Shown here piece by piece: positions 5,447 to 58,775 of a stretch of 64,000 bases of DNA. The position numbers and the translations under genes were made by a program. A model generated the notes under the pieces. That model searched no databases. It was not told where the DNA came from and saw only the letters and a list, made by a program, of their open reading frames with translations. Origin of the DNA: Sorangium aterium (GTDB lineage Bacteria > Myxococcota_A > Polyangia > Polyangiales > Polyangiaceae); the NCBI RefSeq assembly GCF_028368935.1, contig NZ_JAQNDK010000006.1, positions 851,501-915,500 of the forward strand, in the 5' to 3' direction. Numbering within the stretch: the first letter of the stretch is position 1; every line of letters begins with the position of its first letter.

Positions 5447-8400
5447 ATGCTGACGATCTCGGGTTATCAAGCGACCGACAAGATCTACGAGAGCGGCAGC
5501 TCGCGCGTCTACCGGGGCCAGCGCGCCGGAGACGGGCGCGCCGTGATCCTCAAGCTGCTGCGCTCGGACTATCCCAGCCAGACGGAGCTCACGCGCTACC
5601 GGCATGAATACGCGGTGCTCCGCGACCTGGATGTGCCGGGCGTCGTCCGGGCGCTCGACCTGTGCAGACACGAGAACGGGCTCCTCCTCGTCCTCGAGGA
5701 TTTCGGCGGCCGCTCGCTGGCGCACCACCTCCACCACCTCCAGCGCCGCCCGTTCGACGCCGCGGACTTCGTCCGGCTTGCGATCCAGATCACGCGCGCC
5801 CTTCACGAAGTGCACAGAAGCGGAATCATACACAAGGATATCAATCCGTCCAATATCGTATTCAACCGCGAGACGGGCGCCGCCAAGATCATCGACTTCG
5901 GCATCTCGACGCGGCTCTCACGGGAAGAGCTCTCGATCAAGAGCCCCGCGGTGCTCGAGGGGACCCTCGCCTACATCTCTCCCGAGCAGACCGGTCGCAT
6001 GAACCGGTCGCTCGACCATCGCACCGATTTCTACTCGCTCGGAGCCACCTTTTACGAGCTGCTCACGGGCGCGCCGCCCTTCAGCGCGACGGACGCCATG
6101 GAGCTCGTCCACTGCCACGTCGCGCGCGAGCCCGCCCCGCCGCGCGCGCGCTGTCCAGGCGTGCCGGAGGTCCTGTCGGACCTCGTGATGAAGCTCATGG
6201 CGAAGGCGGCCGAGGGCCGTTACCAGAGCGCGGCGGGCCTCCTTCACGACCTGGAGGAGTGCGAGCGGCGCCTCGCGGCCACGGGCGAGATCGCCCCGTT
6301 CCCGCTGGGCCGCGCCGACGCCTCCGGCGAGCTTCGCATCCCGCAGCAGCTCTACGGGCGCGAGCGCGAGGTGCAGGCGCTGCTCGAGGCGTTCGATCGC
6401 GCAGCGCGGGGCAGCGCCGAGCTGATGCTCATCGCAGGATACTCGGGGATCGGCAAGTCCGCGCTGGCGCACGAGCTGTACAAGCCCATCACCGAGGCGC
6501 GCGGGTATTTCGTCGCGGGCAAGTACGACCAGCTCCAGCGAAGCACCCCGTACACCGCGATCACCAGCGCGTTCCGCGACCTGGTGCGGCAGATCGTCGC
6601 CGAGCCCGAGGCGCAGTTCGCGCTGTGGCGCTCGAAGATCAAGGCCGCGCTCGGGGTGAACGGGCAGGTCCTCGTCGACGTGATCCCCGAGATCGAGCGC
6701 ATCGTGGGCGACCAGCCGGCCGTCCCGGCGCTGGGGCCCGCCGAGTCCCAGAACCGCTTCGTGCGTGTCCTCCAGAACTTCGTCCGCGTGTTCTGCGACG
6801 CCGAGCGCCCGCTGGCCATCTTCCTCGACGACCTGCAGTGGGCCGACGCGGCGTCCCTCAGGGTCATCGAGCTCCTGATGACGGACGCGAAGCTGCGCGG
6901 CCTGCTCGTGATCGGCGCCTACCGCGACAACGAGGTCGGGGCCGCGCACCCGCTCTCGGCCGCGATCGCCGCGCTTCGACGGGAAGGGGCGGTCGGTCGG
7001 GTGCGCGAGATCTCTCCGGGGCCGCTCGGCACCGAGATGGTCTGCCGGATGCTCGCGGACGCGCTGCGCGCGGACGCCGCGGCGGTCATGCCGCTCGCGG
7101 CGCTGGTCGCGCGGAAGACGGGCGGCAATCCGTTCTTCGTCAACGAGTTCCTCCGCACGCTGCGCCACACCGGGTGCCTGCGGTACGACGCCGGGCTCGC
7201 GGCGTGGACGTGGGACGTCGAGCACATCGAGTCCAGGAACATCACGGACAACGTCGTCGACCTGATGATCGGCAAGCTCCGGGAGCTCCCCGAGGCCACG
7301 CAGCGAGCGCTCATGTCGGCGTCCTGCCTCGGCAACCGCTTCGACCTGGGCAGGCTCGCCGTCATCCGAGAGGAGACGCGCGGCGATGCCTACCGGCACC
7401 TCGTGCCCGCGCTGCAGGAGGGCCTCATCGTCCCGCTCTCCCCGATGGAGTCCGCGGCTCCCGACGATCTCGCCGCGCCGCTCGTCTTCCCGGACTACAG
7501 GTTCCTCCACGATCGCGTCCAGCAGGCCGCGTACGCCATGATCGAGGACCACGAGCGCAGCGGCCTCCACGCCGACATCGGCCGGCTCCTCCTGCGGAGC
7601 CTGGCCGGGCGCGCCCCCGAGGAGAAGGTCTTCGACGTCGTCTACCACCTGAACCGCGGCGCCGACCTGCTGAGCGACGCCGCGGAGCAGCGGCGCCTCG
7701 CGGAGCTGAACCTCCTCGCGGGCCGGCGCGCGCTGCTCTCCGCCGCCTTCGACGCGGCGCGCGGCTACTTCGCCCGAGGCCTCTCGCTCCTGCCCGCGAG
7801 CGCATGGCAGGACGATCCTGTGCTGATGAGCGCGCTCCACGTCGGCGCGGCCGAGGCGGCGTGCATGAACGCCGACTGGGGCGCGATGAAGGAGCTCGTC
7901 GACGCCGCCCTGTGCGAGATCCACGACGTCATCCACAGGAGCAAGCTCTACGAGCTCCTGATCCTCTATCACCACACCCAGGCGGAGTTCCGGAAGGCCG
8001 TGGACATCGCCGTGGAGGCGCTCGCGCAGCTCGGAGAGACGTTCCCGGCGAGCCCCGGCATGCAGGAGTTCCTCGACGCCTACACGAAGACGACGAAGCA
8101 GGTCGCCGAGATCGGCCTCGAGCGCCTCGGCCAGCTCGCCCCGATGACGGAGGCGCCGAAGCAAGCCGCGCTCGTGATCCTCCGGCGCGCGATCCATGCG
8201 TCCTACTTCGCCGCGCCGGAGATGCTCGGGCTCTTCATATGCCGCGCGCTCGACCTGACGATGGATCACGGCGAGTCGCCGCTCTCGTCCTATGCGTTCG
8301 CGGCGTTCAGCGTGCTCGTCAACGCCGGCGTTGGCGACATCGCGACGGGATCCCAGTTCGGTGAGCTGGCCATCGCGGTGCACCGGCGCCGGGACGAGCC

Positions 8401-10870
8401 GTTCTACAAGGCGAGCGTCTACAACTTCTACTACGGGCTCTCGCGGCACTTCTACCGTCCGGCCCGCGAGAGCCAGGCGCCGCTCATCGAAGGATACCTG
8501 AGCTACGCGGAGAACGGCGACGCCGAGAGCGCCGCGTACTGCCTGATCAACGCCTTCGTCTGCGGCGCCGTCTCCGGGCAGAACCTCATGGACCTCGAGT
8601 CGATGTTCGACAGGTACATCGAGGAGGTGTTCAGGTTCAAGCAAGAGCAGGTCATCAACCAGCTCAGCGTGTGGCGGCAGGTCATCCGGAACCTCACCGG
8701 CAGGTCCGAGCGCGCGGCGAAGATCGAGGGAGAGTTCTTCGACGCCGAGCAGGCGCTGCCGGGTCTCTACGCGACAAAGAACTTCAACACCGTCAATTAC
8801 ATTCATACGGCGCAGGCCATGCTCTATTTCGTGTTTGGCGAATACGAGCTCGCCTACAAGCACGCTGCCGAGACGGAGCCGACCCTCGGCGCGAGCACGG
8901 GCAAGGTGTTCACGCCGCTGCACACCTTCTATTACTCGCTTGCCATGACCGCGCTCTACCCGGCGGCCTCGCCGGAGGACAAGGCGCGCTACCGCGCGAA
9001 GCTGTCGGAGAACCAGGCGAAGCTCAAGGCGCTGTCCGCGACGTGCGCCAGCAACTTCCTGCACCGGTACCTGCTCGTGGAGGCCGAGCTCGCGCGGCTC
9101 GACGGCCGCGCGGCCGAGGCCCTCGACCTGTACGACCGCGCGATCGCGTCCGCCTCGGAGCACGACTACGTGAACGAGGCCGCGGTGGCCTGCGAGCTGG
9201 CGGGGCGGTTCTGGCTCGCGCAGGGGAGAGAGAAGCTCGCGCGCGTGTACCTCGCTGACGCGAGTTACCACTACAAACGCTGGGGCGCCGTCCGCAAGGC
9301 GGAGGACCTGGAGGAGCGGTATCCGCAGCTCGTCGCGCGCGAGGCGCACCCTCCGCCATCCTCCGAGATCGCGCCCTCGCGGACGTTCGTCACGACGACC
9401 TCGCTCGGCGCATCGCGCCTCGATCTACGGACGGTCCTGAAGGCGGCGCAGGCGATCTCCGGGGAGATCGTGCTCGACAGGCTCCTCGCCAAGCTCCTGT
9501 CGGTCGCCATGGAGAACGCCGGCGCCCAGCGCGGCTGCCTCGTCCTCCGGGACAGCGACGGCCTGCGGATCGAGGCCGAGGTCGACTGGACGGACGGCCG
9601 CGACGACACACGCTTCCCGGGGTTGCCCCTCGACAAGGCCGCGGCGCACGATCGCCCGCTCGTCTGGGCCGCTGTCGTGCAGTACGTCGCGCGGACGGGC
9701 CAGTGCGTCGTCCTCTCCGACGCCTCGATAGACCGGCAGTTCCAGCGCGACGACTACGTCGCGCAGCGCTGTCCGAGGTCGGTCCTGTGCACGCCCATCG
9801 TCCACCATAACGACCTTTACGGCGCCATCTACCTCGAGAACAACACGGCGACCGGGACGTTCACCCAGGATCGGCTGGAGCTCCTCTCGATGCTGTCCTC
9901 GCAGATGGCGATCTCCATCGAGAACGCGAAGCTCTACACGGGCGTGGAGCAGAAGGTCCGCGAGCGCACGGCGGAGCTCCAGCAGGCCCACGCGACGATC
10001 GTCCGGCTGGAGCGGGAGGCGGTCGAGAACCAGATGGCGGGCGGCTTCGCGCACGAGATGCGCAACGCCCTCTCGGGGGCCGCCATGGTGCTCGAGTCCG
10101 TGACCCAGGGCGGCGAGACGCTGTGCGCGAAGAACGCAGCCCGGCTCGGCGAGCTCTTCGACTTGCTCAAGGGCGACATCCCGGAGGGAAAGATCAAGGC
10201 GGCCATCGCCTATCTGGGCGAGCTCGAGGAGGCCGAGGAGACGCTCGACAGCGTGCTCCGCATGGTGGGCGACTGCACGGAGCGCGCGCTGAGCGTCACG
10301 AACAGGATCCTGGAGTACTCGAAGCTCGGCGTCGCGCTCGCCGGCGACGAGGTCGTGAGCCTCCGCCGCGTCATCGAGTCGGTTGCGGCGCGGCACCGCG
10401 ACGAGTTCGCGCGCCAGGGCGTTTCGGTCGAGCTCGATCTCCGGGGCGGCTCGGTGGTCGTCGGGTACGAGTCCCACTTCGACTCCATCGTGAGCAACAT
10501 CGTCCTGAACGCGCGCGACGCGCTGCTCCTTGTCGGCGACGGCCGCGGCCGGCGGATGCGGGTCGAGACGATTGACGAGGGGGAGCTCCAGGTCATCACC
10601 ATCAGCGATAACGCGGACGGGATCTCGTCCGAGGATCTCTCGAAGATCTTCCAGCCGTTCTTCTCGACGAAGCCGACGACCGGCGTGGGCCTGGGGCTCA
10701 GCTTCGTCTCCCGCCTCGTCGCGATGTACCGCGGGACGATCGACGTCGAGAGCGCCGCCGAGCGCGGGACGACGTTCGTCGTCCGGCTTCCGCGCGCGGC
10801 GCCCCACGAGCGACCGCAGCCGGCCGGCGGGCCCGTCGGCTGGAACGATCTCAACCTCTCCGGGAATTGA
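5447..10870 (+). CDS. Ser/Thr kinase - AAA ATPase - GAF - histidine kinase hybrid
   Basis: A 1807-aa cytoplasmic signalling protein. Start 5447 is chosen because MLTISGYQ.TDKIYES is the usual beginning of this family. The Ser/Thr kinase domain (about 1-270) has the ATP lysine in VILKLL, the catalytic HKD loop (His129, Asp131) and DFG. An AAA_16-type ATPase (about 305-600) has Walker A GYSGIGKS (Lys337) and Walker B LAIFLDDLQWAD. A long helical repeat region (about 700-1290) is followed by a GAF domain (about 1330-1490). A short coiled coil leads to a HisKA H-box FAHEMRNAL (His1536) and a HATPase domain ending in VGLGLSFVSRL. Two phosphotransfer chemistries are therefore in one chain. The stop lies 14 bp before the response-regulator start, so the next gene is the likely partner. 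The ligand sensed by GAF is unknown. Confidence 0.93.
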   Translation: MLTISGYQATDKIYESGSSRVYRGQRAGDGRAVILKLLRSDYPSQTELTRYRHEYAVLRDLDVPGVVRALDLCRHENGLLLVLEDFGGRSLAHHLHHLQRRPFDAADFVRLAIQITRALHEVHRSGIIHKDINPSNIVFNRETGAAKIIDFGISTRLSREELSIKSPAVLEGTLAYISPEQTGRMNRSLDHRTDFYSLGATFYELLTGAPPFSATDAMELVHCHVAREPAPPRARCPGVPEVLSDLVMKLMAKAAEGRYQSAAGLLHDLEECERRLAATGEIAPFPLGRADASGELRIPQQLYGREREVQALLEAFDRAARGSAELMLIAGYSGIGKSALAHELYKPITEARGYFVAGKYDQLQRSTPYTAITSAFRDLVRQIVAEPEAQFALWRSKIKAALGVNGQVLVDVIPEIERIVGDQPAVPALGPAESQNRFVRVLQNFVRVFCDAERPLAIFLDDLQWADAASLRVIELLMTDAKLRGLLVIGAYRDNEVGAAHPLSAAIAALRREGAVGRVREISPGPLGTEMVCRMLADALRADAAAVMPLAALVARKTGGNPFFVNEFLRTLRHTGCLRYDAGLAAWTWDVEHIESRNITDNVVDLMIGKLRELPEATQRALMSASCLGNRFDLGRLAVIREETRGDAYRHLVPALQEGLIVPLSPMESAAPDDLAAPLVFPDYRFLHDRVQQAAYAMIEDHERSGLHADIGRLLLRSLAGRAPEEKVFDVVYHLNRGADLLSDAAEQRRLAELNLLAGRRALLSAAFDAARGYFARGLSLLPASAWQDDPVLMSALHVGAAEAACMNADWGAMKELVDAALCEIHDVIHRSKLYELLILYHHTQAEFRKAVDIAVEALAQLGETFPASPGMQEFLDAYTKTTKQVAEIGLERLGQLAPMTEAPKQAALVILRRAIHASYFAAPEMLGLFICRALDLTMDHGESPLSSYAFAAFSVLVNAGVGDIATGSQFGELAIAVHRRRDEPFYKASVYNFYYGLSRHFYRPARESQAPLIEGYLSYAENGDAESAAYCLINAFVCGAVSGQNLMDLESMFDRYIEEVFRFKQEQVINQLSVWRQVIRNLTGRSERAAKIEGEFFDAEQALPGLYATKNFNTVNYIHTAQAMLYFVFGEYELAYKHAAETEPTLGASTGKVFTPLHTFYYSLAMTALYPAASPEDKARYRAKLSENQAKLKALSATCASNFLHRYLLVEAELARLDGRAAEALDLYDRAIASASEHDYVNEAAVACELAGRFWLAQGREKLARVYLADASYHYKRWGAVRKAEDLEERYPQLVAREAHPPPSSEIAPSRTFVTTTSLGASRLDLRTVLKAAQAISGEIVLDRLLAKLLSVAMENAGAQRGCLVLRDSDGLRIEAEVDWTDGRDDTRFPGLPLDKAAAHDRPLVWAAVVQYVARTGQCVVLSDASIDRQFQRDDYVAQRCPRSVLCTPIVHHNDLYGAIYLENNTATGTFTQDRLELLSMLSSQMAISIENAKLYTGVEQKVRERTAELQQAHATIVRLEREAVENQMAGGFAHEMRNALSGAAMVLESVTQGGETLCAKNAARLGELFDLLKGDIPEGKIKAAIAYLGELEEAEETLDSVLRMVGDCTERALSVTNRILEYSKLGVALAGDEVVSLRRVIESVAARHRDEFARQGVSVELDLRGGSVVVGYESHFDSIVSNIVLNARDALLLVGDGRGRRMRVETIDEGELQVITISDNADGISSEDLSKIFQPFFSTKPTTGVGLGLSFVSRLVAMYRGTIDVESAAERGTTFVVRLPRAAPHERPQPAGGPVGWNDLNLSGN

Positions 10871-45698: not shown

Positions 45699-46051
45699 GT
45701 CGCGTGTCCGGACGACGCCACCCGGGCGTTCTCCCGGCGATGAACCGAGTAGTAGTTCGAGTCCTCATGTGACACAGTCGACGCGCGTGTGAGGGGCATG
45801 GCATCGGCCCGCGCTCTCCCGCGCGCCTCCGGACATCGACGGTGGACAGCGCAGCCATCCAGACGAGCTCTTCGATGGATCCGAGCTCGATCCAGGCGAC
45901 GCTGCGCGCACGAGCGAACCGGCGCGCTCTCGGCTGAAATCAAGGAAATTCGAAAGTTCGAATGCGCTGAAGGAGCTGCTGATCGGGGGCGGTGCGCCGA
46001 GGGGCAATTCGAACGATCGCGAACACGGCAATCTTTCGAGCGTCGAGGACC

Positions 46052-47456
<1,405 letters not shown>

Positions 47457-47458
<2 letters not shown>

Positions 47459-49534: not shown

Positions 49535-51388
49535 ATGACCATGCACTTCTCTTCCCAACCTCCCAGCACCCGCTCTCTCAACCGACGCGCAGGCGGTACG
49601 GCGTCTGCTGTCTGTCTTCTCGCTCTCCTTGCAGGGTGTAGCGGGGAGTCGCAGGTGGGCGACGGCGATGGCGGCAGCGGCGGCGGCGGCACCACGGGCG
49701 CGACGACCGGCCCCGGGATGGGCGTTTCGAGCAGCAGCGGCTCGGGCGGGAGCAATGGCCAGACGACGAGCGTCGGTTCGACGAGCGCCAGCGGAGGCTC
49801 GGACGCGACCGGAGGCGGTGACCCCGGTACCGGCGGCGGCGGTGACGGCGGCGACGGCGGCGGCGCCCCGGCTGTCTGCCCCGAGACCTACTCCAATCCT
49901 CTCCTCTGGCAGGACCTCCCCGACCTCGAGGTCATTCGCGTCGACGACACCTACTACTACACGGCGTCCACGTTCCACCATGCGCCGGGAGCGCCCCTGC
50001 TCCGCTCCTACGATCTGGTCCACTGGGAGTACGTTTCACACTCCGTTCCCCTGCTGGACGTCGACCCGTCGTACGACCTGAGCGGGGGCCGATCCTATGT
50101 CAACGGCATCTGGGCGTCGACGCTCCAGTACCGGGAGAGCAACAAGACCTTCTACTGGATGGGCTGCATGCACAACAAGGGCGGCGGCTGGGTCTTCACA
50201 TCCAAGTCCCCGGAAGGTCCGTGGGAAAAGCACAAGGGTGGCTGTTACTACGACATGGGGTTGTTGATCGACGACGACGACACCATGTACGTGGCCTCCG
50301 GAAACAACACGATCAGCGTGGCGCAGCTGAGCGCGGACGGCTTCAGCCAGGTCAAGAGTCAGACGGTGTTCCAGACGCCGGGCGACCTCTCCGGACCGCT
50401 GGAGGGCTCTCGCTTCATCAAGAAGGACGGAGTCTACTACATCTTCACCACGCAATACGCGAACGGTGAGTATGTGCTGCGCTCGACGAAGGGGCCCTTT
50501 GGTCCCTACGAAATGCGGCCCTTCGCGGTGAGGGTGCCCTACGCCGGCGCTCCGGGCTCCGGCGGCTCCCCGCACCAGGGCGGCATCGTCCAGACGCAGA
50601 ACGGCGACTGGTACTACCTCGGGTTCAACGACTCGTACCCGGCCGGCCGCATCCCGGTGATGGCCCCGATGACCTGGAACGACGGCTGGCCCTCGCTCAC
50701 GCTGGTGGACGGCAAGTGGGGAGGTACGTATCCCTTCCCGGACCTGCCTTGCGGATCGAATCGAGTGAAGCCGCCTGTGACCAAGGACACCTTCGCGGAG
50801 GCGACCCTGCGTCCAGAGTGGGAGTGGAACCACAACCCCGACAGCACCAAGTGGTCCTCAGGGGCTGGGCTGACGCTGCAGACGGCGACGGTGACCGACG
50901 ATCTGTACGCCGCTCGAAACACGCTGACGCGCCGTATCGAAGGACCCGTCTCGATCGGGACGATCGAGCTCGACTACAGCAAGATGCAGAACGGCGACGT
51001 CGCCGGCCTGGCCGCCCTGCGCGACGTATCGGCGTGGATCGGGGTCAAGAAGGCCAGCGGGGGAGCGCGCGTCGTGATGACCAACGGCGTCAACATGAAC
51101 ACCTCCTGGGCCACGACGGGCAAGGGCACCGAGGCGGCTGGCGCGGACGTGTCCGGCGGCAAGATCTGGCTGCGCGTGGAGGCCAACGTCCGCTCGGATG
51201 GCGGCGGCGCGCAGGCGCGCTTCTCCTACAGCACGGACGGCACCCGATTCACCAACCTGGGCAACACGCTCAGCATGAACAAGAACTGGCAGTACTTCCT
51301 CGGCTACCGGTTCGGCATCTTCAACTACGCCACGCAGTCGCTGGGCGGCTCGGTGAAGGTCGCTTCCTTCGAGGTAACCAAGCCGTAA
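49535..51388 (+). CDS. Secreted GH43 beta-xylosidase/arabinofuranosidase lipoprotein
   Basis: 617 aa from ATG 49535. Signal with lipobox LLALLAGC; Gly/Ser/Thr linker to about residue 110. The five-bladed propeller begins YSNPLLWQDLPDLEVIRVDD, in which Asp of LPDLE is the general base. The transition-state Asp is in CYYDMGLLIDDDDTMYV and the general-acid Glu in GPLEGSRFIKKDGVYY. HQGGIVQTQNGDWYYLGF closes the propeller. A C-terminal concanavalin-like (GH43_C2/DUF1349-type) domain starts near FAEATLRPEWEW. Such enzymes release xylose or arabinose from arabinoxylan. The palindromic operator shared with the xyloside uptake operon links it to the same regulon. Confidence 0.92.
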   Translation: MTMHFSSQPPSTRSLNRRAGGTASAVCLLALLAGCSGESQVGDGDGGSGGGGTTGATTGPGMGVSSSSGSGGSNGQTTSVGSTSASGGSDATGGGDPGTGGGGDGGDGGGAPAVCPETYSNPLLWQDLPDLEVIRVDDTYYYTASTFHHAPGAPLLRSYDLVHWEYVSHSVPLLDVDPSYDLSGGRSYVNGIWASTLQYRESNKTFYWMGCMHNKGGGWVFTSKSPEGPWEKHKGGCYYDMGLLIDDDDTMYVASGNNTISVAQLSADGFSQVKSQTVFQTPGDLSGPLEGSRFIKKDGVYYIFTTQYANGEYVLRSTKGPFGPYEMRPFAVRVPYAGAPGSGGSPHQGGIVQTQNGDWYYLGFNDSYPAGRIPVMAPMTWNDGWPSLTLVDGKWGGTYPFPDLPCGSNRVKPPVTKDTFAEATLRPEWEWNHNPDSTKWSSGAGLTLQTATVTDDLYAARNTLTRRIEGPVSIGTIELDYSKMQNGDVAGLAALRDVSAWIGVKKASGGARVVMTNGVNMNTSWATTGKGTEAAGADVSGGKIWLRVEANVRSDGGGAQARFSYSTDGTRFTNLGNTLSMNKNWQYFLGYRFGIFNYATQSLGGSVKVASFEVTKP

Positions 51389-51611: not shown

Positions 51612-53198
51612 CTACTTCTTCGTCGGCGCGGGCGCGCCGCTCTGGATCCAGCTGCGGAGGGCCGAAAGCTCGGCGCTCGTCAGGCTCGGCTTGCCGTCCG
51701 CGGCCTGCGGCATGACGCCCGTCTGGCAGGTGCCGCCTGCGGAAGGCCTGCATCCGGCGTTCCCGGCCGTCCCTGCGACCTTGAGGTAGAGCCAGCTCTG
51801 GTCCGGGTTCCCCGGGACCACGAGCTTGAACTGCCCACCGCCCCTGGCCGTCTTGTTGACGAGGCCCGCGACGATGTCCGCCGAGCTGATGTCGCCGCCG
51901 AGCGACAGACCGGCTTGGGGACCGGTCGACGGCGCAGCGTGGCAGCCGCTGCACTTGTGGATCGCGCTCTCGAAGATCGGACGGATGGTCTCGTGGAAGA
52001 CGCCGGACTCCTCGGGCAGGGGATTTCCGGGATCCGGATCCGGCGTCAGGTCGGGATTGATGACCTGAGCGATCGCGTCCATCTCGTAACACTGGGCAGC
52101 GACCGCGTCCTTCAGCTTCTGATCGGTGGGCGACATGCCCTTGGCGACACGGTACTTCTCCCAGACATTGTCGATCCAGCCGTGCAGCTTCCAGAACATG
52201 TAGTTGTCGATGTTCGTGAACTGGTTGCCGAGGCCGTGGTCGGTGTTCTGGGAGCGCACCCACTTGAAGTGGAGATCGCCGTGCAGGCCGCTGGCCTGCT
52301 GGTTGGTGCCCGGGATGGCCTGGCCGGCGAAGCACTGGAGCCACATGCCGAGCGCGCCCTCGTCCGGGAAGCGGCTCAGGTTCTCCGGCTTGTCGATCTC
52401 GTCGCCGATCTTCGCGTTGGCGAGCGTCGTGGCGCTCCAGGGCCTGAAGTCCGATCTCCACTGCTGAGGCACCTCCTCCGCCGTCGTGGGGAACTTCTTG
52501 AAGCCCTCGAACTGCTCCGAGTGCTTCGGCCAGAGCTGCTTCAGCGACTGGATCATGTGCCGGTGCATGGCGAGGAACTGGAAGCCGTCGCCCGTGCTCT
52601 TGCACTCCTGGTCCGACGGGACTGGGACCGCCGATTTGCAGATATTGACCCTGCTCATGCCCATGCCGCCGGTGCAGCGCCGGATGCTATGCCACTCGAA
52701 GTGGGCGGCTTGCCATTCGTTCTCCTCCATCCAGGAGATGACCTCCGGCTGAACCGTGAGATCGATCTGACCGTTCTTCGTGAACTCCGCCGAACCGTCC
52801 TTCATCGTCGCGTCGGTGGGATGGGGATCGTAACCGTCCACGCAATGATCCTTCGGGTGCGTGTCGCCCGTTCCGCTCGATCCGCCGGTGCCGCCGGCGG
52901 GATCTCCGGTGGACGAGGAGGAGCCCGTCGTCGCGGTGGAGGTCGAGGGGACGCCGGCGCCGGCGCCGCTGGTGCTTGCGCCGGGACCGGTGCTGGTGCC
53001 GGTGCCGGTCAACGAGGAAGTCGAGGTGGAGGTGGGCACGTCGCCGCCGCCTGCTCCACCGGTGCCCCCGGCGTCGGGATCGTCGCCGCTACAGGCTCCC
53101 AGCACCAAGGCGGTAATGCACGAGAGTAATCCGAATGTGCGTTGCGAGATCTTGCCCAATGACACGGTGGACGGACCTGCCTGATCGTTGATTCGCAT
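51612..53198 (-). CDS. Tyrosinase-like copper lipoprotein with CxxCH motif
   Basis: 528 aa from ATG 53198. Lipoprotein signal with LVLGAC; Gly, Ser and Thr linker to about residue 125. The middle part has a type-3 copper-like pattern: FEWHSIRRC, then FLAMHRHMIQSLKQLWPKH, and later HGDLHFKW and FWKLHGWIDNVWEKY, corresponding to CuA (F..xHR) and CuB (FW..H...D..W) signatures of tyrosinases and hemocyanins. The C-terminal part contains KCSGCHAAP, a c-type heme-binding CxxCH within a PF07635-like planctomycete cytochrome segment (FETIRPIFES-type context: TIRPIFESAIHKCSGC). It could oxidise phenolic compounds at the cell surface; activity is inferred. Confidence 0.75.
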   Translation of the reverse strand: MRINDQAGPSTVSLGKISQRTFGLLSCITALVLGACSGDDPDAGGTGGAGGGDVPTSTSTSSLTGTGTSTGPGASTSGAGAGVPSTSTATTGSSSSTGDPAGGTGGSSGTGDTHPKDHCVDGYDPHPTDATMKDGSAEFTKNGQIDLTVQPEVISWMEENEWQAAHFEWHSIRRCTGGMGMSRVNICKSAVPVPSDQECKSTGDGFQFLAMHRHMIQSLKQLWPKHSEQFEGFKKFPTTAEEVPQQWRSDFRPWSATTLANAKIGDEIDKPENLSRFPDEGALGMWLQCFAGQAIPGTNQQASGLHGDLHFKWVRSQNTDHGLGNQFTNIDNYMFWKLHGWIDNVWEKYRVAKGMSPTDQKLKDAVAAQCYEMDAIAQVINPDLTPDPDPGNPLPEESGVFHETIRPIFESAIHKCSGCHAAPSTGPQAGLSLGGDISSADIVAGLVNKTARGGGQFKLVVPGNPDQSWLYLKVAGTAGNAGCRPSAGGTCQTGVMPQAADGKPSLTSAELSALRSWIQSGAPAPTKK

Positions 53199-56768: not shown

Positions 56769-58775
56769 ATGTCGATCTTCGAGCTCTCGTTTCAGTCCGG
56801 GGAGGCCTCGCTCTCCGTGCGCCGTGTCGTGATCCAGGAGGCCGTCTCCGAGCTCTTCACCGTCTCGGTGTGGGCCCGGTCCAGGCTCTCGGATCTCGAG
56901 CTGGAGCCGCTCGTCGGCCAGAGCGCGTCGCTCCAGATCCAGCCCGACCCCGAGCACCTCCACTGGCTGAGCAGCAGGCTCTGGCAGGGCGTGTGCAGCC
57001 ACGTGGAGCAGGTGCAGGCCGAGCCGACGGGGCTCTCGACATACTACCTCCGCATCGTGCCGCGCCTCTGGCTGCTCACCCAGCGCCGCGGACACCGCAT
57101 CTACCAGCACCTCTCCATCCCCGACATCGTCGACGCGCTCCTCGGCGAGTGGGCGATCGAGCCGGCGTGGAAGATCGATCGCGGCGCGTATCCAAGGCTC
57201 GAGTACAAGGTCCAGCACGGCGAGAGCGACCACGCCTTTCTATGCCGCCTCCTCGAAGAGGCAGGCATCGCCTACACCTTCCCGGACAGCGGGAAGGACG
57301 CCAAGCTCACCCTGAGCGACAAGCTCGAGTCGGAGCCGCTGCGGCCGGGGCCGCCGCTGCCTTACATCGACAACCCCCTCGAGACCTCGGAGCGCGAGTT
57401 CGTCACCAGGGTGCGGTTCAGCCACGAGGTCCGGCCCGGCGCGAGCACGATCCGCGGCCACGACTTCCGCAAACCCTCGTTCGCGCTCACCGGCGAGGCG
57501 CCCCCGGCGCCCGCGCCCGAGGCGAAGTACGAGCAGTACAGCTACGAGCCCGGCGCGTTCCTCGCCGCGAGCGCCGGGGGCGGCGCGCCCGTCGGCGACG
57601 CCAAGGGCGTTTACCGCCACGACCCGAAGCACGGAGCCGATCTGTCGACACGGGTCCTCGCGGCGATGCGCGCCGACAAGCGCGGCGTGCTCTTCGAAGC
57701 CAACGTGATCGACCTCTACCCGGGCCGGGTCTTCTCCGTCGATCAGCACCCGCACCCGGAGGTGGGAAAAGGGCCGCTGATGGTGGCCGAGCTCGAGATC
57801 GCGGCCTCGCTCGACGAGCCGTGGAGCGTGCACGGGCGCGCGCTCTTCGCCGATTCCAAGGTCCCGTACCGGCCGGCGCGCAAGACGCCCAGGCCGGTCG
57901 CGCCCGGGCTGCAGAGCGCGACCGTGGTGGGGCCGCCGGGCGCCGAGATCCACACCGACGAGCTCGGGCGGGTGCGCGTGCAGTTTCCGTGGGATCGCGA
58001 GGGCAAGCTCGACGACAACAGCTCGTGCTGGATGCGCGTGAGCCAGGGCTGGGCGGGCGCCGGCTTCGGGATGTTCATGCTCCCCCGCGTCGGCCAGGAG
58101 GTGCTCGTGGCCTTCCTCGACGGCGATCCCGATCTCCCCATCGTGGCCGGGCGCGCCTTCAACGGCCGTGAGCTCGTGCCGTACAAGCTGCCTGATCACA
58201 AGACGGTGAGCACCTGGAAGAGCAGCTCGTCGCCCGGCGGCGCGGGCTACAACGAGATCAAGTTCGAGGACCAGGCGGGCCAGGAGCTCGTCTACATGCA
58301 GGCGCAGCGCGACAGGAACCAGCTCGTCAAGCGCGATGAGGTCGAGCGCACCGGGCGCCACAAGCGGAGCACCGTGGGAGGCGACGAGCACGTGGTCGTG
58401 AAGGGCACACGGAAACAGCTCGTCCACGGGGGCGACCACGTGCACGTGAAGCTGGATCAGCGACAGGCCGTCGACGGCTCCGTGTCGCTCACGGTCGCCG
58501 TGAACCGGGACGAGCACGTGGGCGCGAACCACGCGCTCGAGGCCGGCGGGCAGCTCCACATCAAGGCGGGCGCGACCCTGGTGCTCGAGGCGGGCCAGCG
58601 GCTCACCATCAAGGGGCCTGGAGGCTTCATCGACATCCACCCGGGGGGCGTCGACATCGTGGGAACTGTCGTCAACATCAACAGCGGCGGCGCGCCGGGC
58701 GCCGGCCAGGGCGCGAACCCGGCGGCGCCGCTCCAGGCCGAAGAGGCGCACCCCAAGGACACGCCGTCTCCCTGA
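56769..58775 (+). CDS. vgrG: Type VI secretion spike protein VgrG
   Basis: 668 aa. The N-terminal gp27-like region (about 1-330) opens FELSFQSGEASLSVRRVVIQ and includes HGESDHAFLCRLLEEAGIAY, a hallmark of VgrG. The gp5-like OB-fold (about 385-470) has DELGRVRVQFPWDREGK, SCWMRVSQGWAGAGFGMFML and PRVGQEVLVAFLDGDPD. The C-terminal beta-helix needle follows, with GGYNEI-type (GGAGYNEIKFEDQAG) and short repeats. No extra effector domain is attached to the C-terminus, which ends in low-complexity PLQAEEAHPKDTPSP. It trimerises at the tip of the Hcp tube and carries PAAR and cargo. The other T6SS structural genes are not in this window. Confidence 0.95.
   Translation: MSIFELSFQSGEASLSVRRVVIQEAVSELFTVSVWARSRLSDLELEPLVGQSASLQIQPDPEHLHWLSSRLWQGVCSHVEQVQAEPTGLSTYYLRIVPRLWLLTQRRGHRIYQHLSIPDIVDALLGEWAIEPAWKIDRGAYPRLEYKVQHGESDHAFLCRLLEEAGIAYTFPDSGKDAKLTLSDKLESEPLRPGPPLPYIDNPLETSEREFVTRVRFSHEVRPGASTIRGHDFRKPSFALTGEAPPAPAPEAKYEQYSYEPGAFLAASAGGGAPVGDAKGVYRHDPKHGADLSTRVLAAMRADKRGVLFEANVIDLYPGRVFSVDQHPHPEVGKGPLMVAELEIAASLDEPWSVHGRALFADSKVPYRPARKTPRPVAPGLQSATVVGPPGAEIHTDELGRVRVQFPWDREGKLDDNSSCWMRVSQGWAGAGFGMFMLPRVGQEVLVAFLDGDPDLPIVAGRAFNGRELVPYKLPDHKTVSTWKSSSSPGGAGYNEIKFEDQAGQELVYMQAQRDRNQLVKRDEVERTGRHKRSTVGGDEHVVVKGTRKQLVHGGDHVHVKLDQRQAVDGSVSLTVAVNRDEHVGANHALEAGGQLHIKAGATLVLEAGQRLTIKGPGGFIDIHPGGVDIVGTVVNINSGGAPGAGQGANPAAPLQAEEAHPKDTPSP

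Follow-up and report, generated by a model that had tools for sequence, protein, structure and literature searches.

In the present study, one gene of Sorangium aterium was found to encode a lipoprotein of 528 residues that joins a PvdP/hemocyanin-like copper domain to a putative c-type heme domain, and our confidence in this anatomy is strong. The gene lies in the window, by which we mean the whole stretch of 64,000 nucleotides that was analysed, and belongs to a genome of 13.5 Mb; among named organisms, strains of Sorangium cellulosum are its closest relatives. The architecture, the two ligand sets, the fold class, the distribution of the family and its neighbourhood of wall enzymes were established by computation. 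We propose that the protein is a surface phenol oxidase or hydroxylase of plant-wall phenols, in which the c-heme would exchange electrons with the PvdP-like copper pair, likely feeding them in; in our judgement this reading stands about an even chance of being right. Within it, we are moderately confident of the plant-wall context but place little confidence in either the direction of the electrons or the substrate.

Protein architecture and conserved ligands

The preliminary description of this DNA had placed type-3 copper and CSGCH heme motifs in a single linker-bearing lipoprotein. This was borne out by the frame at 51612-53198, which carries both motifs, the copper ligands being invariant in all aligned homologues and the heme-motif Cys, Cys and His in all aligned fusions (Table 1). 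A second, short linker separates the copper-type domain, ending near residue 382, from the CSGCH domain. When the translations were compared, the similarity of the homologues to the 528-residue frame began at MRIND, and an alternative GTG start is possible 120 bases upstream. Between the window and four orthologues, differences were most numerous at third codon positions, with 59-69 of them as compared with 25-45 at first and second positions, over 413-415 codons. This pattern, together with the homologues in seven of 98 genomes, indicates that the frame is a real coding sequence.

Table 1. Features of the fusion gene and its neighbours in the window
Feature	Position	Strand	Basis
Whole gene, 528-residue lipoprotein with copper-type and c-heme domains	51612..53198	-	ORF, translation, homologues
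Signal sequence, residues 1-35, ahead of lipidated C36 (lipobox LGAC)	53094..53198	-	Translation; lipobox by eye
Ser/Thr/Gly low-complexity linker, residues 37-113	52860..53090	-	Translation
PvdP/hemocyanin-like copper domain, about residues 114-382	52053..52859	-	Sequence and structure matches
CuA pair H166-x3-H170	52689..52703	-	Invariant 18/18
CuA third ligand H212 (AMHRHM)	52563..52565	-	Invariant 18/18; pairs with PvdP MHRHM
CuB pair H306-x3-H310	52269..52283	-	Invariant 18/18
CuB third ligand H339 (KLHGWID)	52182..52184	-	Invariant 18/18; pairs with PvdP SFHGWID
Putative c-heme-type domain, about residues 398-528	51615..52007	-	Family-model and structure matches
Heme attachment motif CSGCH, residues 416-420	51939..51953	-	C416, C419, H420 invariant in 15/15 fusions
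M496, likely distal heme ligand (role inferred)	51711..51713	-	Invariant in 15/15 fusions
Neighbour: GH43 beta-xylosidase-type lipoprotein, convergent	49535..51388	+	PF04616 E 3e-36, PF17851 E 1e-25
Neighbour further out: GDSL/SGNH esterase-type lipoprotein	45992..47458	+	PF13472 E 2e-25

The alignment of the homologues held 18 sequences, of which 15 were fusions and three were copper-domain proteins lacking the heme part; the fusion place G009:C424 was left out. The only invariant histidines were H166, H170, H212, H306, H310 and H339, while C416, C419, H420 and M496, as well as the lipidated C36, did not vary in any of the 15 fusions. Exactly the same six histidines were left in a second alignment, made up of four heme-less proteins and 11 fusions (15 rows), and all six are kept in a heme-less relative of only 308 residues (L050). 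Since the six histidines hold in 18 of 18 sequences and the four heme residues in every fusion, the copper and heme motifs are beyond chance; this invariance and the predicted fold led us to reject a chance motif match. The residue following H306 divides the family, being Gly in the group of the window protein and Phe in the group of its paralogue.

Family and fold of the two domains

No credible Pfam match was obtained for the window protein. The tyrosinase model PF00264 did not match it at E values up to 10, nor any of the 15 family members at E values up to 1, and its identity as an ordinary PF00264 tyrosinase was rejected for want of a model match. In NCBIfam, the PvdP tyrosinase model NF051454 matched with an E value of 2e-6 and 26.5 bits, against a curated cut-off of 625, and PvdP was also the best solved relative by sequence (E 7e-4). 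In the CuA region the alignment paired FHQLWHASRD ... MHRHM with AHFEWHSIRR ... MHRHM, and at the last CuB histidine FHGWIDD with LHGWIDN. The middle CuB pair was matched by eye to MHDWLH of PvdP, as the HMMER alignment does not cover it.

An AlphaFold2 model of residues 114-528 was built from an input of 13 sequences (mean pLDDT 80, pTM 0.68). Foldseek alone gave nothing significant for the whole model against the PDB, and the structural ranking comes from VIA-align run on Foldseek's own list. In this ranking, the copper domain was matched best by five PvdP entries (Z 12.2-12.6 over 204-207 residues, rmsd 3.5-3.7), followed by Limulus and scorpion hemocyanin (Z 10.8), mosquito prophenoloxidase (8.8) and fungal polyphenol oxidase (6.9). 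Thus, the nine best rows for the predicted structure were all type-3 copper proteins (Z 6.9-12.6), and unrelated rows reached at most 2.8. The copper domain is therefore predicted to have the four-helix-bundle fold of the type-3 copper superfamily, and a two-copper site is what the predicted structure points to. The preliminary description had called the CuA and CuB patterns tyrosinase-like. This holds as regards a type-3 copper-like domain with six invariant histidines, but not as regards the common tyrosinase family PF00264, outside which the domain falls; it is PvdP/arthropod-hemocyanin-like instead.

Ordinary tyrosinases occur separately in the window's genome, as two PF00264 genes (L084, G000:C6:342718-343617; and G000:C2:831298-832110), and such genes are present in three of six genomes of the genus. 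In the same family of bacteria, a frame of 636 residues (L066, G034:C781) scored better than the window protein on the PvdP model (E 1e-16).

The C-terminal domain appears c-heme-like from its sequence and its predicted structure. A diheme cytochrome family of NCBIfam matched the window protein with an E value of 0.009, below its curated cut-off. TIGR03806 was matched by all 15 members at E values up to 0.1 (best 3e-4), with the window protein far under the curated cut-off. Pfam gave no heme-family match for the window protein, and Cytochrome_CBB3 was matched by seven of the 15 members at E values up to 1. With VIA-align, the C-terminal part matched hydrazine synthase (5c2v, Z 6.8 over 107 residues) and FoxE (5mab, Z 6.5 over 100 residues), and the heme domain folded alone (pLDDT 78.5) matched the same two proteins again, the Z scores for FoxE spanning 6.2-6.5. 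The CxxCH motif lies, then, in a domain whose best matches are c-heme proteins, weak as these are (Z at most 6.8). Since such scores fall in the range of chance arrangements, heme binding is predicted chiefly from the conserved motif.

The heme module or its relatives were also found on many other myxobacterial proteins, often with CX4CH replacing CxxCH. A related module with C-x4-CH occurs in lipoprotein-type frames of myxobacteria (L030-L032, L052, L054, L056-L058, L061 and others), and in L052 and L057 the partner domains, which bear HHS and H-x-H motifs, resemble nothing known. Against the PDB, L052 gave no match and L057 unrelated weak matches only. A copper-monooxygenase identity for L052, L056, L057 and L058 was considered and is unconfirmed: Pfam placed none of them in a family of that kind, and in G118, G127, G138, G156, G174 and G179 the places matching the copper monooxygenase family PF03712 are on different contigs from those of the heme module.

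Distribution and plant-wall neighbourhood

Relatives with both domains were found at 14 places in seven of the 98 sampled genomes of the family, two in each. Besides the window's own genome, these comprise four genomes of the same genus and two that belong to other genera. In G019, also of the genus and 89% complete, the linker alone was matched; elsewhere among the 98, copper-domain-only matches occurred in G034, G091 and G029, and the remaining matches were to the heme domain only. The paralogue in the window's own genome (L002) is 56% identical to the window protein. A scan of genome contigs gave 12 homologue loci (L009-L020), eight of them in four named Sorangium strains, each with two copies, and the other four in three MAGs. 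When a profile of the copper domain was run over 140 genomes of the phylum, it matched in the window's own genome only, in a first pass that can miss distant relatives. The plasmid search with the copper domain gave one weak match only, a Tat-pathway signal protein of Paenibacillus amylolyticus (NZ_CP145893.1, 205273-205947; 25% identity, E 7e-4).

Proximity to hemicellulose enzymes had also been remarked in the preliminary description, and it extends beyond this locus: a GH43 gene converges on the fusion in the window, and wall-enzyme flanks recur elsewhere with different enzyme families. The gene order around the fusion differs among relatives. In strain So0008-312 a GH11 gene stands on both flanks and in So ce26 upstream, a polysaccharide deacetylase adjoins the fusion in So0157-2, a rhamnogalacturonan lyase adjoins the paralogue L002, and GH88, GH3 and GH12 genes adjoin other copies. 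Further out are a glucuronyl esterase-type protein (L009), GH8 (L012) and pectic acid lyase (L014). No wall enzyme was found at the judgeable immediate flanks of L010, L013, L014, L015, L018 and L020.

The flanks were tallied by hand over 14 loci (the window, L002 and L009-L020; L026 was omitted for its short flanks). Plant-wall enzymes accounted for 9 of the 26 flanking genes but for 1 of the 29 genes taken at random (Fisher p 0.0033); counted by locus, they occurred at 8 of 14 loci, compared with 1 of the 15 random stretches (p 0.0047). Two flanks were set aside to reach the 26, the upstream one of L018 and the downstream one of L014, whose next gene is cut off by the end of the contig. The upstream flank of L016 and the downstream flank of L017 were called ABC-type by eye alone; doubtful gene predictions next to L012 and L013 were counted as non-wall, and a dubious small frame beside L017 was skipped, reaching GH3. 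The tally of wall-enzyme flanks includes the deacetylase of L011, which may not act on plant walls, and a GH11 gene common to L009 and L012, probably by descent. The random control is small (15 stretches of three Sorangium genomes, with 29 genes in all) and its single match is GH18. In the available text of a survey of 61 myxobacterial genomes, CAZymes account for 2.01-5.14% of genes (PMC12093494). Overall, the frequency of plant-cell-wall enzymes among the neighbours suggests an attack on plant phenolics outside the cell. Elsewhere in the window, a VgrG-like spike protein is encoded at 56769-58772 (+); it has phage GPD, gp5 and base V domains and may belong to a type VI secretion system.

A second kind of neighbour was found at two MAG loci. 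At L018, an intradiol dioxygenase Tat-type lipoprotein (1822-2949, E 1.3e-7) is encoded on the same strand as the fusion and starts about 50 bases beyond it. At L014 the N-terminus of a very similar Tat-type lipoprotein stands directly downstream (8288-8623) before the contig ends. The adjacency was seen at these two loci only, and they may be close relatives. Sorangium dioxygenases, 60-63% identical, are encoded elsewhere on the chromosome in five of six genomes, and the fusion is present in precisely these five.

Proposed function, alternatives and related systems

Sorangium, a soil bacterium, breaks down plant material, cellulose included. As reported in the available text of the 61-genome survey, myxobacteria have no AA1 laccases and AA2 peroxidases are infrequent (PMC12093494), and a phenol-oxidising enzyme beside the wall enzymes of Sorangium would be a candidate for the missing step. 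In the proposed mechanism, the lipoprotein would probably sit on the outer surface and be loaded with copper and heme. Its PvdP-like coupled two-copper site would bind and activate O2, so that plant cell-wall phenols, released or attached, could be hydroxylated or oxidised to catechols or quinones. The covalent c-type heme would pass single electrons to or from the copper site. Most likely it would feed them in, reducing the resting copper pair and making the hydroxylation of monophenols to catechols independent of a diphenol starter, although the electrons may equally run from heme to copper or from copper outward. If the heme does drive the copper pair, this would be a natural design of a tyrosinase that needs no diphenol starter.

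The direction of the electrons was considered beside other copper proteins of the host. The family PF03712 (copper type II monooxygenase, C-terminal domain) matched at ten places in the window's genome. Eight of the ten frames (L102, L103, L105-L108, L110 and L111, outside the window) are of lipoprotein type, and in each a CxxCH motif precedes copper-type motifs of the form HHx or HMHxxG; L104 and L109 lack this arrangement. Hence, the joining of heme to copper oxygenases appears to be a habit of this organism. The heme profile of the window protein did not match the heme domains of these frames, so they represent a similar design and not a shared module. Copper monooxygenases of the PHM/DBH type need two external electrons, which suggests that the attached hemes feed the copper. 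Among the literature matches listed, nothing on point was found for fusions of heme with copper monooxygenases, nor was a tyrosinase-cytochrome c fusion described in the open-licence literature searched. A review of wetland tyrosinases names Sorangium as a host, and the word cytochrome is absent from its main text as available (PMC9454253).

Several points weigh against heme-driven oxidation of wall phenols: the heme-domain Z scores within the chance range and the lack of a Pfam heme match, the unmatched heme domains of the PF03712 frames, and the fact that tyrosinases need no attached heme and that heme-less relatives exist. The dioxygenase, moreover, adjoins the fusion only at two MAG loci, which may be closely related, and in Sorangium it is encoded at other places. 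The Gly after H306 (Phe in the paralogue), which we take to favour diphenol oxidation over monophenol hydroxylation, also counts against this reading and would suit a catechol oxidase. It was taken in favour of a rival in which the heme is an electron sink, the copper or quinone chemistry oxidising catechols and the heme passing the electrons to other surface cytochromes or the respiratory chain. This outward direction is the one suggested in the preliminary description, with lignin-linked phenolics as candidate substrates. Such a sink fits the same anatomy, and a frame near the paralogue (L002:3616-4545) resembles an SO2930-type cytochrome by eye, with no Pfam match. Yet in the tyrosinase cycle O2 already takes up the electrons, which makes an acceptor unnecessary, and the eight heme-bearing monooxygenase frames of the host belong to an electron-consuming class; we consider the sink fairly improbable. 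A wider form of the heme-driven reading is somewhat doubtful and is offered tentatively: myxobacteria may possess a surface set of self-sufficient copper oxygenases in which c-heme is combined with unrelated copper folds, the fusion being the tyrosinase-type case, with heme-driven hydroxylation of wall phenols and, in some species, ring cleavage by a surface dioxygenase.

The protein might instead be no phenol enzyme, its copper site only binding O2 or serving as a sensor or structural element and its heme being structural. There is a myxobacterial precedent in TfcP, a noncanonical cytochrome c of Myxococcus xanthus that, in the available text, is unlikely to act in electron transport and has an unusual His/Cys ligation (PMC8833165), and the O2-carrying hemocyanins are the second-best fold matches. 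We think this unlikely, as M496 and the six histidines are all invariant where the ligation of TfcP is unusual, an enzyme (PvdP) outranks the hemocyanins, and the wall-enzyme and dioxygenase neighbourhood points to metabolism. Since PvdP is the closest solved relative, maturation of a secreted natural product, as PvdP performs for pyoverdine, was also weighed; it is very unlikely, for no biosynthetic neighbours were seen among ten window proteins or the flanks scanned elsewhere, and the N-terminal region of PvdP has no counterpart (only 192-506 aligned). Least credible, and indeed barely so, is a role in providing lytic polysaccharide monooxygenases with diphenols or electrons, for which there are a fungal precedent (PMC5424327, as far as its available text goes) and the wall-enzyme neighbourhood. 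The family LPMO_10 (PF03067) had no match in any of the six Sorangium genomes searched for it, and LPMO priming was rejected as the main reading.

Compared with known systems, the heme-driven phenol oxidase proposed here is nearest to PvdP of Pseudomonas aeruginosa (6eys, 6eyv, 6rrp, 6rrq, 6rrr; NF051454) in the fold of its copper domain, the CuA region and the last CuB histidine. PvdP is the tyrosinase of pyoverdine maturation. The copper domains are only 18-19% identical and the model score is far under the NF051454 cut-off; residues of PvdP before 192 or after 506 find no counterpart, and where PvdP has its N-terminal domain, the window protein has its low-complexity linker. Unlike PvdP, the window protein has a lipoprotein anchor and a putative c-heme domain, and pyoverdine genes are absent among the neighbours scanned. 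Hemocyanins have H-x3-H in both copper sites, as does the window protein, and the arthropod hemocyanins and prophenoloxidases (1lla, 3ixv, 8ji8) share its predicted copper-domain fold (Z 8.8-10.8), but they are 12-14% identical, much longer and without a heme domain. Hydrazine synthase, FoxE and the SO2930-type cytochromes (TIGR03806) resemble the C-terminal domain in arrangement or model match, all weakly, and the window protein has a single heme motif. In function, MtPPO7 of Myceliophthora thermophila is an analogue, a polyphenol oxidase tied to lignocellulose breakdown that feeds LPMOs in the available text of its report (PMC5424327); compared by description only, it differs in being fungal and LPMO-feeding, whereas Sorangium is without an LPMO_10 match. 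Finally, the PF03712 lipoproteins of the same genome differ in their unrelated copper fold and in their heme domain, which is N-terminal and unmatched by the window profile, but they share with the fusion a lipoprotein-type start, one CxxCH domain and a putatively O2-activating copper domain.
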